Origin: Bacteroidales bacterium
GTDB taxonomy: Bacteria; Bacteroidota; Bacteroidia; Bacteroidales; VadinHA17
Direction of reading: 5' to 3'
DNA: 41,307 nucleotides
Assembly (NCBI GenBank): GCA_027028505.1
Contig: JALVJE010000038.1
Coordinates: forward strand, 1-41,307
Below, piece after piece: positions 40,118-41,307 of the stretch. Position numbers and translations under genes: made by a program. Positions within the stretch are counted from its first letter, which is position 1; every line of letters begins with the position of its first letter. The notes beneath the pieces are model-generated. The model was not told the origin of the DNA and searched no databases. It saw only the letters and a program-made list of their open reading frames with translations.

Positions 40118-40687
40118 ATGATACGTTCCATATCATTTTTAATTTTTGTGTTATTCCTTTTTCCGGCTGCGGGATATTCTTCAAATAATATGCCATCGTC
40201 GCAAAATGACACGGTCTATTACACCCCCGGCGTTATGAAAGAAACAGCCCGTCTGTACACCGACAAAGACAACGCCAGTTCGGTGGTGATGTATGTCCCT
40301 GCCGATTCGGCAGTGATGATCCTGGACACGGCCGGTACCTATTTTCTGGTCCATTACCAGGGCATCGACGGATACATCCGTCAGAACCATGTAAAGCAAT
40401 ACAAGGAGATCCTGCAGGAGCTGACCTCGCATGCAGGCAAAGATATCGCACAACCCACGAACCGGCATGATTATCTCATACTGAAATACGGTCAGAATGA
40501 GGGCAGGAAGATATACGAACACATGATCTGGAAGGGGATGACCTCGGAGATGGTCCTGGACAGCTGGGGCAAGCCCAAGGTGATCAATCATTATACCACC
40601 TCCAACGGCTATCGCGAAGAGTGGATCTACGGCAAGCACGTGCTCACCTTCACCAACGGTATCCTTACCGGCTGGATCGCGCGATAG
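40118..40687 (+). CDS. Secreted protein with SH3-like domain and SmpA/BamE-like C-terminus
   Basis: 189 residues. Signal peptide 1-20 (MIRSISFLIFVLFLFPAAGY). Residues 41-92 fit a bacterial SH3 domain (ETARLYTDKDNASSVVMYVP, ending GYIRQNHVKQY), a fold that often binds peptidoglycan. Residues 136-189 (MIWKGMTSEMVLDSWGKPKV, then EEWIYGKHVLTFTNGILTGW) resemble the SmpA/OmlA/BamE domain, in which GMTxxxVxxxxGxP begins the first helix. Joined in this order they suggest an envelope protein. It ends 24 bases before the left border of the GIY-YIG repeat module. Confidence 0.72.
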   Translation: MIRSISFLIFVLFLFPAAGYSSNNMPSSQNDTVYYTPGVMKETARLYTDKDNASSVVMYVPADSAVMILDTAGTYFLVHYQGIDGYIRQNHVKQYKEILQELTSHAGKDIAQPTNRHDYLILKYGQNEGRKIYEHMIWKGMTSEMVLDSWGKPKVINHYTTSNGYREEWIYGKHVLTFTNGILTGWIAR

Positions 40688-40710: not shown

Positions 40711-40745
40711 CCATAAGGAAATTAATGGTACCCGGAGCGGGACTT
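40711..40745. repeat. Left border of GIY-YIG module: leader copy with an orphan start codon
   Basis: The 35 bases beginning CCATAAGGAAATTAATGG and ending GGAGCGGGACTTC match 41107-41142 with one missing G. At 41107-41110 the CCAT holds the GIY-YIG start codon (minus strand); here the reading frame after that ATG is unrelated DNA, so this is a leader without its gene. Confidence 0.8.
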
Positions 40746-40849
40746 CCCGCCCGGACGATCGGTCGGACGGGCCCGCCCGGTCGTCCGGTCGGACGGGCCC
40801 GCCCGGATGACCGGTCGGACGGGCCCGCCCGGACGATCGGTCGGACGGG
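40746..40849. repeat. Array of four 26-bp palindromic units
   Basis: Four units in perfect head-to-tail register, with no spacers. Each is CCCGCCCGG, five variable bases (ACGAT, TCGTC, ATGAC, ACGAT) and CGGTCGGACGGG. The arms are complementary except at one C/A position, which becomes a G/T wobble on the minus strand. It lies just downstream of the first GIY-YIG gene, separated by GAACCCGCACGG. Confidence 0.95.
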
Positions 40850-40861
40850 GAACCCGCACGG

Positions 40862-41110
40862 TCAAATATCCTCCAGAATCTTTCTCAGATAACGACGACC
40901 CGAAGCTGTTTTAAAATAACGCTCCCTCTCGAGAGCTTCCGCTCGTGTGGAGAATTTTTCGCTGTATACCAACTTCCAGGGCATATGCCCTTTGGTATAC
41001 TTCACTTTGCCCTGATTGTGCTGTTTTATGCGGGCTTCCAGATTACGTGTCTGGCCTTTATAATAGGACCCATCACGTTCGCTCTGCAGTACGTAGACGT
41101 AATAGTCCAT
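40862..41110 (-). CDS. GIY-YIG nuclease-domain protein, copy 1
   Basis: 82 residues from the ATG at 41110. The frame is open upstream to 41236, but those 42 codons are translated hairpin repeats and I reject them. Single GIY-YIG domain: YYVYVLQ (GIY strand) and SYYKGQT (YIG strand, with Lys for Ile), then NLEARIKQHN (Arg 27, His 31), WKLVYSEKF, and ALERERYFK with the candidate metal-binding Glu. Stand-alone GIY-YIG proteins of this size are abundant in Bacteroidota and are related to UvrC nuclease domains and homing endonucleases; they cut DNA or recognise branched DNA, role unknown. It is flanked by 26-bp palindrome arrays on both sides and repeats as a second copy. Confidence 0.9.
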   Translation of the reverse strand: MDYYVYVLQSERDGSYYKGQTRNLEARIKQHNQGKVKYTKGHMPWKLVYSEKFSTRAEALERERYFKTASGRRYLRKILEDI

Positions 41111-41142
41111 AAGGAAAGTTAATGGTACCCGGAGCGGGACTT
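41107..41142. repeat. Leader between GIY-YIG copy 1 and array 2 (direct repeat of 40711-40745)
   Basis: Same leader as at 40711-40745, with one inserted G (AAGGAAAGTTAATGG). On the minus strand it is the 5' leader of copy 1, ending in its ATG at 41110-41108. It has no clear TAnnTTTG box and no strong Shine-Dalgarno sequence. Confidence 0.8.
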
Positions 41143-41220
41143 CCCGCCCGGACGATCGGTCGGACGGGCCCGCCCGGACGATCGGTCGGACGGGCCCGCC
41201 TGGTCGTCCGGTCGGACGGG
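41143..41220. repeat. Array of three 26-bp palindromic units
   Basis: Three contiguous units of the same 26-bp design, with cores ACGAT, ACGAT and TCGTC; the third unit has one base change in the left arm (CCCGCCTGG). On the minus strand the array lies between the stop of GIY-YIG copy 2 and the start of copy 1, so it is both the 3' end of one gene and the 5' region of the other. Confidence 0.95.
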
Positions 41221-41232
41221 GAACCCGCACGG

Positions 41233-41307
41233 TCAAATGTCCTCCAGAATCTTTCTCAGATAACGACGACCCGAAGCTGTCTTAAAATAACGCTCCCTCT
41301 CGAGAGC
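41233..41307 (-). CDS. GIY-YIG nuclease-domain protein, copy 2 (C-terminal end, cut by window edge)
   Basis: The last 24 codons and stop of a second GIY-YIG gene. The protein end (ALERERYFKTASGRRYLRKI, then LEDI) is identical to copy 1. The 75 coding bases differ from copy 1 at two positions, and both changes are silent (GAT/GAC for Asp, AAA/AAG for Lys). The preceding GAACCCGCACGG also matches. The module therefore is a tandem duplication that continues outside the window. Confidence 0.9.
   Translation of the reverse strand, partial: ALERERYFKTASGRRYLRKILEDI

Follow-up and report, generated by a model that had tools for sequence, protein, structure and literature searches.

Small GIY-YIG nuclease genes of Bacteroidia beside tRNA genes: putative tRNA-targeting homing elements with hairpin-broken tRNA remnants

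The constant partner of a group of small GIY-YIG nuclease genes in Bacteroidia is a tRNA gene and not the hairpins that are frequently found near them. In this work we have analyzed two tandem modules from a Bacteroidales bacterium, in which such a gene adjoins an array of palindromic units, together with related loci of other genomes. The module probably constitutes a minute element that targets a tRNA gene; it would encode a putative tRNA-targeting homing nuclease, and the element as a whole would restore the tRNA. This view has been built from comparisons of occupied and unoccupied loci, from the structure of the broken tRNA copies that accompany the nuclease genes and from the distribution of both over the protein tree.

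Organization of the modules and of the tRNA-Leu locus

The window is the whole of contig C38 (41,307 nucleotides) from a home genome of 3.38 Mb in 275 contigs. At its right end lie two modules of the same internal order, a 26-bp hairpin array, a 12-base link and a GIY-YIG gene, and the window ends with the contig inside the second of them; both the repeated order and the second copy running off the edge had been described in an earlier sequence-only reading and are confirmed. A tandem-repeat search (scores 173 and 128) likewise confirmed the arrays of 26-bp palindromic units, four at 40746..40849 and three at 41143..41220, and the reported 82-codon GIY-YIG gene corresponds to an open reading frame at 40862..41110 on the minus strand (82 codons and a stop) that matches the Pfam GIY-YIG family with E 2.9e-18. 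The second copy of the gene (41233..41307, minus strand) is cut by the contig end and retains its last 24 codons and the stop. The modules start with CCATAAGG at 40711 and 41107, and the spacing of 396 bp consists of 104 bp of array and 292 bp of other sequence, so the period of 371 bases plus 26 per unit proposed earlier was wrong. The array strand folds better than 200 of 200 shuffled sequences (z -3.67). A CRISPR array was considered and rejected, as the 26-bp units abut without spacers.

The GIY-YIG gene has minus-strand orientation, and in the direction of its transcription it is followed by the link, the array and finally the leader, which is the stretch that opens the module on the forward strand. 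Link and leader are both present as the sequence-only reading had it; what it did not recognise is that both are pieces of the 3′ end of a tRNA-Leu gene. The end of contig C121 carries a complete tRNA-Leu(TAA) followed by the start of the same GIY-YIG gene, with the domain match starting 19 bp past the tRNA, and sequence comparison identified the window link as the 5′ side of the T-arm of this tRNA and the leader as the remaining T-arm together with the acceptor strand and CCA. In minus-strand orientation the window gives GTGCGGGTTC, the array and AAGTCCCGCTCCGGGTACCA; the array interrupts the T-loop of a tRNA-Leu remnant (GGTTC^array^AAGTCC), presumably separating C56 from A57 in standard tRNA numbering. 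In module 1 the first part of the remnant (40850..40866, minus strand), which is the former link, comprises the end of the variable arm and the 5′ side of the T-arm to GTTC and overlaps the stop codon of the nuclease gene. The second part (40726..40745, minus strand), most of the former leader, runs from AAGTCC to CCA and is 100% identical to tRNA-Leu positions 68-87. Comparison with the intact tRNA-Leu placed the two parts of the module 2 remnant at 41221..41237 and 41123..41142, also on the minus strand.

A 189-aa gene at 40118..40687 (plus strand) serves as the syntenic anchor of this locus. Its homologues in the same-genus genome G006 and the same-family genome G010 have a tRNA-Leu(TAA) without a nuclease gene at a distance of 155 and 58 bp, respectively, and both genomes carry their GIY-YIG matches on contigs other than the one with this unoccupied tRNA-Leu. 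In the same-genus genome G004 a contig starts inside a hairpin array within a tRNA-Leu remnant, at the same site as in the window, and in the sister genome G001 the comparison at this locus runs into the end of a contig. By synteny, the order in the home genome would likely be intact tRNA-Leu, nuclease, remnant with the three-unit array, nuclease, remnant with the four-unit array and the 189-aa gene; contigs C121 and C38 are unjoined, and further copies may lie between them. The intact tRNA-Leu is identical to the remnant over the shared stretch, which counts against the explanation favoured here.

That the tandem is an assembly artefact, a single module echoed where the contig terminates, is barely credible. 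The substitutions and the different array lengths by which the two copies are distinguished speak against an echo, even though C38 and C121 both terminate inside the gene and thus inside the repeat, and tandem modules have been found in several other genomes at positions internal to contigs, among them the four-copy tandems of L198 and L207, which lie within contigs of 3.3 Mb and 596 kb, respectively.

Nuclease genes and their tRNA neighbours

Residues Y6, Y17, G19, R27, H31, E63 and K67 of the window protein are invariant in an alignment of 35 relatives, and conserved GIY-YIG residues point to DNA cutting. The nearest solved structures by sequence, PDB 1zg2 and 1ywl, are UPF0213/YhbQ-like small GIY-YIG proteins of the same size class; the longer group of proteins among the loci analyzed differs in lying away from tRNAs. 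A length of 82 aa leaves no separate DNA-binding domain, which weighs against the homing explanation, and the modules examined (window, L003, L265 and L290) have space for the nuclease gene alone.

Besides the window, the home genome contains five GIY-YIG matches. Four of them are small (one with an internal stop) and are located 19 to 306 bp downstream of a same-strand tRNA gene, for Leu, Arg, Ala and Met, and the fifth is a 464-aa frame with no tRNA nearby (L005). When 60 genomes, the home genome included, were searched with the window protein, 40 gave matches; of the 65 loci drawn from this search, 60 in addition to the 5 of the home genome, 36 have a tRNA no more than 300 bp away, always on the same strand (36/36), and 39 have one within 1 kb. 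A profile, A1, matched in 198 of 295 sampled Bacteroidia genomes, and in a second set, composed of the first A1 match of the first 60 non-home genomes by E-value, a tRNA is present within 300 bp at 52 of 60 loci, on the gene's strand in 52/52, and within 1 kb at 55. As a control, a tRNA was found at 0 of 30 Y1_Tnp loci of the same class, each of 1.9 to 3.4 kb. A further 80 loci with named records, which were found with one protein and overlap the other sets in part, have a tRNA within 300 bp in 57 cases (57/57 on the gene's strand) and within 1 kb in 65, the numbers being 39 and 44 among the 45 loci flanked by 400 bp or more on each side. Here tRNA-Pro makes up 52 of the 57 tRNAs, in records that include Flavobacteriaceae, Cyclobacteriaceae, Chitinophagaceae, Sphingobacteriaceae, Saprospiraceae and Balneolaceae, and one Elusimicrobia record has the gene at a tRNA-Ser.

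Exceptions amount to 33 of 134 loci of the first sets, whose best GIY-YIG match lacks a tRNA within 1 kb. In ten of them, the window included, a tRNA fragment still adjoins the gene, as read from the output, and two represent one tandem locus whose tRNA is more distant. The other 21 include 13 in a group of longer proteins, which we take to be YhbQ-like, four in the clade around L088 and one, L099; that some GIY-YIG groups occur away from tRNAs counts against the explanation proposed here. An Rfam search of 18 loci gave only tRNA and tmRNA above the curated score, and a second search added three matches, all below it.

Two arrangements of the neighbouring genes may be recorded separately. At L099 it is a tmRNA (786-1181) and not a tRNA that precedes the nuclease gene, on the same strand and at a distance of about 320 bp. 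At L086, L098, L100 and L109 the nuclease gene precedes the tRNA, and its last codons and stop are encoded by the tRNA 5′ end, as in the ending ...GVAQPG within a tRNA-Pro.

Other origins of the gene were also considered. A known anti-phage defence system was rejected, since PADLOC gave two weak matches (the better with E 0.0058 over 35 residues, the other with E 0.015). Among the phage records 21 match the window protein, with no T-even phage among 20 of them. A phage origin was rejected on the grounds that IMG/VR yielded a single locus (49% identity) without an ARAGORN tRNA, that the one Rhizobium phage relative examined out of the 21 records has no annotated tRNA within 1.5 kb, and that the PHROGs search gave no match. 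The plasmid DNA search was likewise without a match, and the plasmid protein search returned 7 records at 41-45% identity.

tRNA remnants, hairpins and protein lineages

Two forms of the locus have been distinguished. In one an intact tRNA is located upstream and a partial copy bearing the tRNA 3′ end downstream of the gene, and in the other, its mirror image, a partial copy bearing the 5′ end is upstream and the intact tRNA downstream. Among the 103 loci that have a tRNA at a distance of up to 500 bp (L173 and L207, which are the same place, both counted) an extra partial tRNA copy is present in 95 by a loose cutoff used without a control; most of these fragments are identical to the intact tRNA over the shared stretch, which counts against the favoured explanation. 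Under a strict rule that demands a terminal tRNA fragment on the far side of the gene, a remnant is found in 68 of the 103 loci, and the 35 loci without one are likewise a point against it. A hairpin, defined as a perfect stem of at least 6 bp beginning no more than 3 bases from the broken end, is present at the break in 53 of the 68 strict remnants, and in 43 of the 68 it attains p 0.05 relative to shuffled versions of the same sequence. The named set gave a strict remnant in 18 of 63 loci (the 45 others again counting against the explanation) and a hairpin at the break in 14 of the 18, for an expectation of 1.1 from shuffles. A link of the nuclease family to hairpins, as the sequence-only reading had suggested, is thus borne out. 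At L311, L332 and L271 hairpin-bearing remnants missed by the strict rule are visible by eye.

The hairpins vary between genomes, and they are inserted into a tRNA arm or replace it. By automated labels 19 of 28 pure insertions are at a tRNA loop, and of the nine remaining ones several, left uncounted, are at a loop-stem boundary by eye. Covariation within the hairpins was left out as evidence because they had been preselected for perfect stems.

It is improbable that the remnant is instead a functional tRNA-like RNA and RNA the substrate of the protein, which could then be, for instance, a toxin against tRNA that has an RNA partner. The remnants at L290, L311 and L332 are nearly whole tRNAs with one arm swapped for another hairpin, in which a cloverleaf-like fold could persist, and the PADLOC matches are weak only; against it, many remnants are mere fragments, the breaks fall in different arms and the conserved GIY-YIG residues, as known from the family, suggest DNA cutting.

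The distribution of these features was followed on a tree of 115 proteins built from 83 columns, a weak tree with 55 of 112 inner branches open, and compared with label shuffling, which ignores genome relatedness. The tRNA isotype changes 39 times among 88 labelled proteins (shuffled mean 65.7, lowest 59, 0/300 as low), the side on which the tRNA lies 16 times among 88 (mean 23.2, 1/300 as low) and the hairpin position class 14 times among 46 (mean 21.7, lowest 17, 0/300 as low), two of the position labels, for L001 and L003, being hand-set. The T-loop micro-position, with 3 changes against a shuffled mean of 5.2 and 7/300 as low, is only suggestive, given its 18 hand-set labels. From the low counts of changes it follows that protein lineages hold to one tRNA and one hairpin position, and a lineage-bound position is what a putative cut-site scar predicts.

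Empty orthologous sites, which the sequence-only reading had advised looking for, were found at the tRNA-Leu loci of G006 and G010 described above and at a tRNA-Arg locus. The tRNA-Arg(CCT) locus is occupied in the home genome (L003) and unoccupied in its sister G001, which is 85% complete and has no GIY-YIG match; the flanks of the two genomes align over 1420 and 1139 bases with identities of 93.5% and 91.7%, respectively. On the right side the homology resumes at tRNA index 56, immediately past the hairpin. On the left side it enters a 5′ tRNA fragment, where the home genome has a second hairpin, and G001 itself bears part of the tRNA 5′ end, 15 bases long, as an extra copy ahead of its tRNA-Arg, so that this site is less than pristine and its left boundary imprecise. 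The 3′ remnant agrees with the G001 tRNA in 18/18 bases, whereas the intact tRNA beside the nuclease differs from it in 8 of 73 and is identical to the tRNA of G002, G003, G006 and G010, genomes whose flanks are much less similar to those of the home genome or do not align. The plainest reading of these comparisons is that the native tRNA-Arg was probably split and that an intact tRNA of another allele arrived with the nuclease. G004, with a related element at the tRNA-Arg locus, also has the 18 bases of the remnant, so there is a small chance that the remnant was transferred with the element, although the flank downstream of the remnant continues as in G001. A distinct replacement allele has been established at this one locus only.

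Dispersed hairpins, proposed mechanism and known systems

Following the advice of the same reading, the unit was searched for in the home genome. With up to 3 mismatches the pattern gave 22 matches on both strands and the reversed control 0, which is beyond chance; seven matches are within the window, and those outside it are on contigs without a GIY-YIG match. The sequence CCTGCCTRCCGGCAGGCAGG, which forms a hairpin in several remnants, was matched 49 times in forward orientation in the home genome and occurs in 23 of 60 genomes, among them G001 and G031 with 19 and 13 forward copies, neither of which gave a GIY-YIG match in the search with the window protein (85% and 76% complete, respectively). 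Hairpins on contigs free of GIY-YIG genes and in relatives without a detected nuclease mean that a nuclease-driven spread, as suggested earlier by analogy to RAYT, is not supported. In many loci a hairpin does adjoin the nuclease gene. With the hairpins dispersed away from the nuclease and the tRNA as the constant partner, we nevertheless consider very unlikely a nuclease counterpart of REP/RAYT, in which the enzyme would recognise its own hairpins and cause them to grow or spread. Judged from their distribution, the hairpins appear to be a host repeat family common to the tRNA elements that does not require the nuclease.

REP/RAYT systems combine dispersed palindromes with Y1_Tnp transposase genes. 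The present case resembles them in that the palindromes are dispersed between genes and the home genome has three Y1_Tnp matches, and it differs in that the window locus has no such transposase, that the tested palindrome words were found near 0 of the 3 home-genome Y1_Tnp loci (2.4-3.3 kb around each) and that the constant partner is a tRNA. These data bear on a rather doubtful alternative, namely that two independent phenomena overlap: GIY-YIG genes would simply lie beside tRNAs, and REP-like palindromes, moved by another system and uninformative on the nuclease, would land in the remnants because these are unconstrained and offer loop-like or TTC^RA targets. Such an overlap agrees with the hairpin copies on contigs and in relatives that lack GIY-YIG genes, with the Y1_Tnp genes of the home genome and with several dispersed copies that by eye are also at TTC^AA. 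It agrees as well with locus L010 (contig C132, minus strand 1660-1331), where a hairpin array interrupts the 5′ remnant of a tRNA-Pro and an intact tRNA-Pro follows closely downstream, without an intervening nuclease gene, an arrangement that counts against the explanation we prefer. It is harder to reconcile with hairpins at the break of so many remnants in many genomes and with unrelated hairpin sequences, with the frequent replacement of a whole tRNA arm rather than insertion, with a hairpin position class that tracks the protein tree and with the lack of these palindromes around the three Y1_Tnp matches.

Units without a nuclease gene of their own were also seen at L087, L169 and L200, as tandem hairpin-bearing tRNA remnants upstream of an intact tRNA. 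Some dispersed palindromes (L002, ~1319-1357; L010, ~920-970; L018-L023) seem to be nested, one hairpin lying within the loop of another, or to form compound hairpins with a GAGGATCC link.

For the tRNA-targeting element itself we propose the following mechanism. The nuclease would cut one arm or loop of the target tRNA gene, in the window case the T-loop after GTTC, and repair from an element-bearing copy would introduce both the nuclease and the sequence needed for an intact tRNA to remain. The tRNA end displaced in this way would persist as the remnant, and the hairpin in it would separate the halves of the cut site and so preclude re-cutting; the hairpins of the elements are similar to palindromes that the host itself has in dispersed form. 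Further rounds of cutting, with recombination between tRNA copies, could give rise to tandem modules, as reported for SegB of phage T6. More tentatively, and with somewhat less than even confidence, we suggest that these may be widespread chromosomal selfish elements of minimal size (about 300-500 bp, one bare GIY-YIG gene and tRNA sequence). They would interrupt essential tRNA genes and provide an intact replacement, as a natural form of cleave-and-rescue, with each protein lineage bound to one tRNA species and one arm and with the hairpins at the cut site as immunity scars of the displaced tRNA ends.

According to a report on phage T6, SegB is a free-standing GIY-YIG nuclease that adjoins tRNA genes and cuts within them, with the cleavage motif RAWTSGAAC (23/83 sites), and it drives tandem amplification of a tRNA-segB repeat via recombination (PMC13096335). 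The other strand of this motif, GTTCSAWTY, is T-loop-like; by our own count it fits the G001 tRNA-Arg T-loop at 8/9 positions and the window tRNA-Leu at only 7/9, and the hairpins at both loci split the T-loop motif after GTTC. The phage nuclease and its tRNA link are thus already known. The present loci share with SegB of T-even phages the GIY-YIG nuclease beside tRNA genes and the tandem tRNA and nuclease repeats, and are distinguished by bacterial chromosomes, a protein of 82 aa without room for a second domain and with a predicted cutting activity, one gene per tRNA locus and hairpin-broken tRNA remnants. In a literature search of titles and abstract starts, with most subscription journals and bioRxiv outside its scope, chromosomal tRNA-splitting nuclease genes with hairpin scars were not found.

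Two further systems offer a comparison. Integrative elements target tRNA 3′ ends and restore them, and the loci studied here resemble them in the insertion at a tRNA gene, the intact tRNA that is kept and the partial copy on the far side, and are unlike them in a module that fits the nuclease gene alone, in the existence of 3′-end and 5′-end forms and in the hairpin at the break. Cleave-and-rescue gene drives are engineered and, like the proposed elements, combine a nuclease with an intact copy of its essential target, whereas the elements proposed here would be natural and a distinct replacement allele is known for one locus only. Should our interpretation be true, a large gene family of unknown role would gain one as tRNA-targeting homing elements, tRNA genes would gain a new class of parasite and the repeat expansion reported for SegB would reach beyond phages into bacterial chromosomes. 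With both occupied and unoccupied sites available, the homing idea can be tested directly.

A separate observation concerns a conserved structured element upstream of tRNA-Leu(TAA), present at L006 (~905-1344, in three tandem copies), L217, L219, L220 and L224, the ends of which mimic the tRNA-Leu 5′ end. It gave no Rfam match up to E 0.1, and the consensus fold of 7 sequences has 30 pairs, 12 of them kept with two-sided changes; the element is possibly a new leader RNA.
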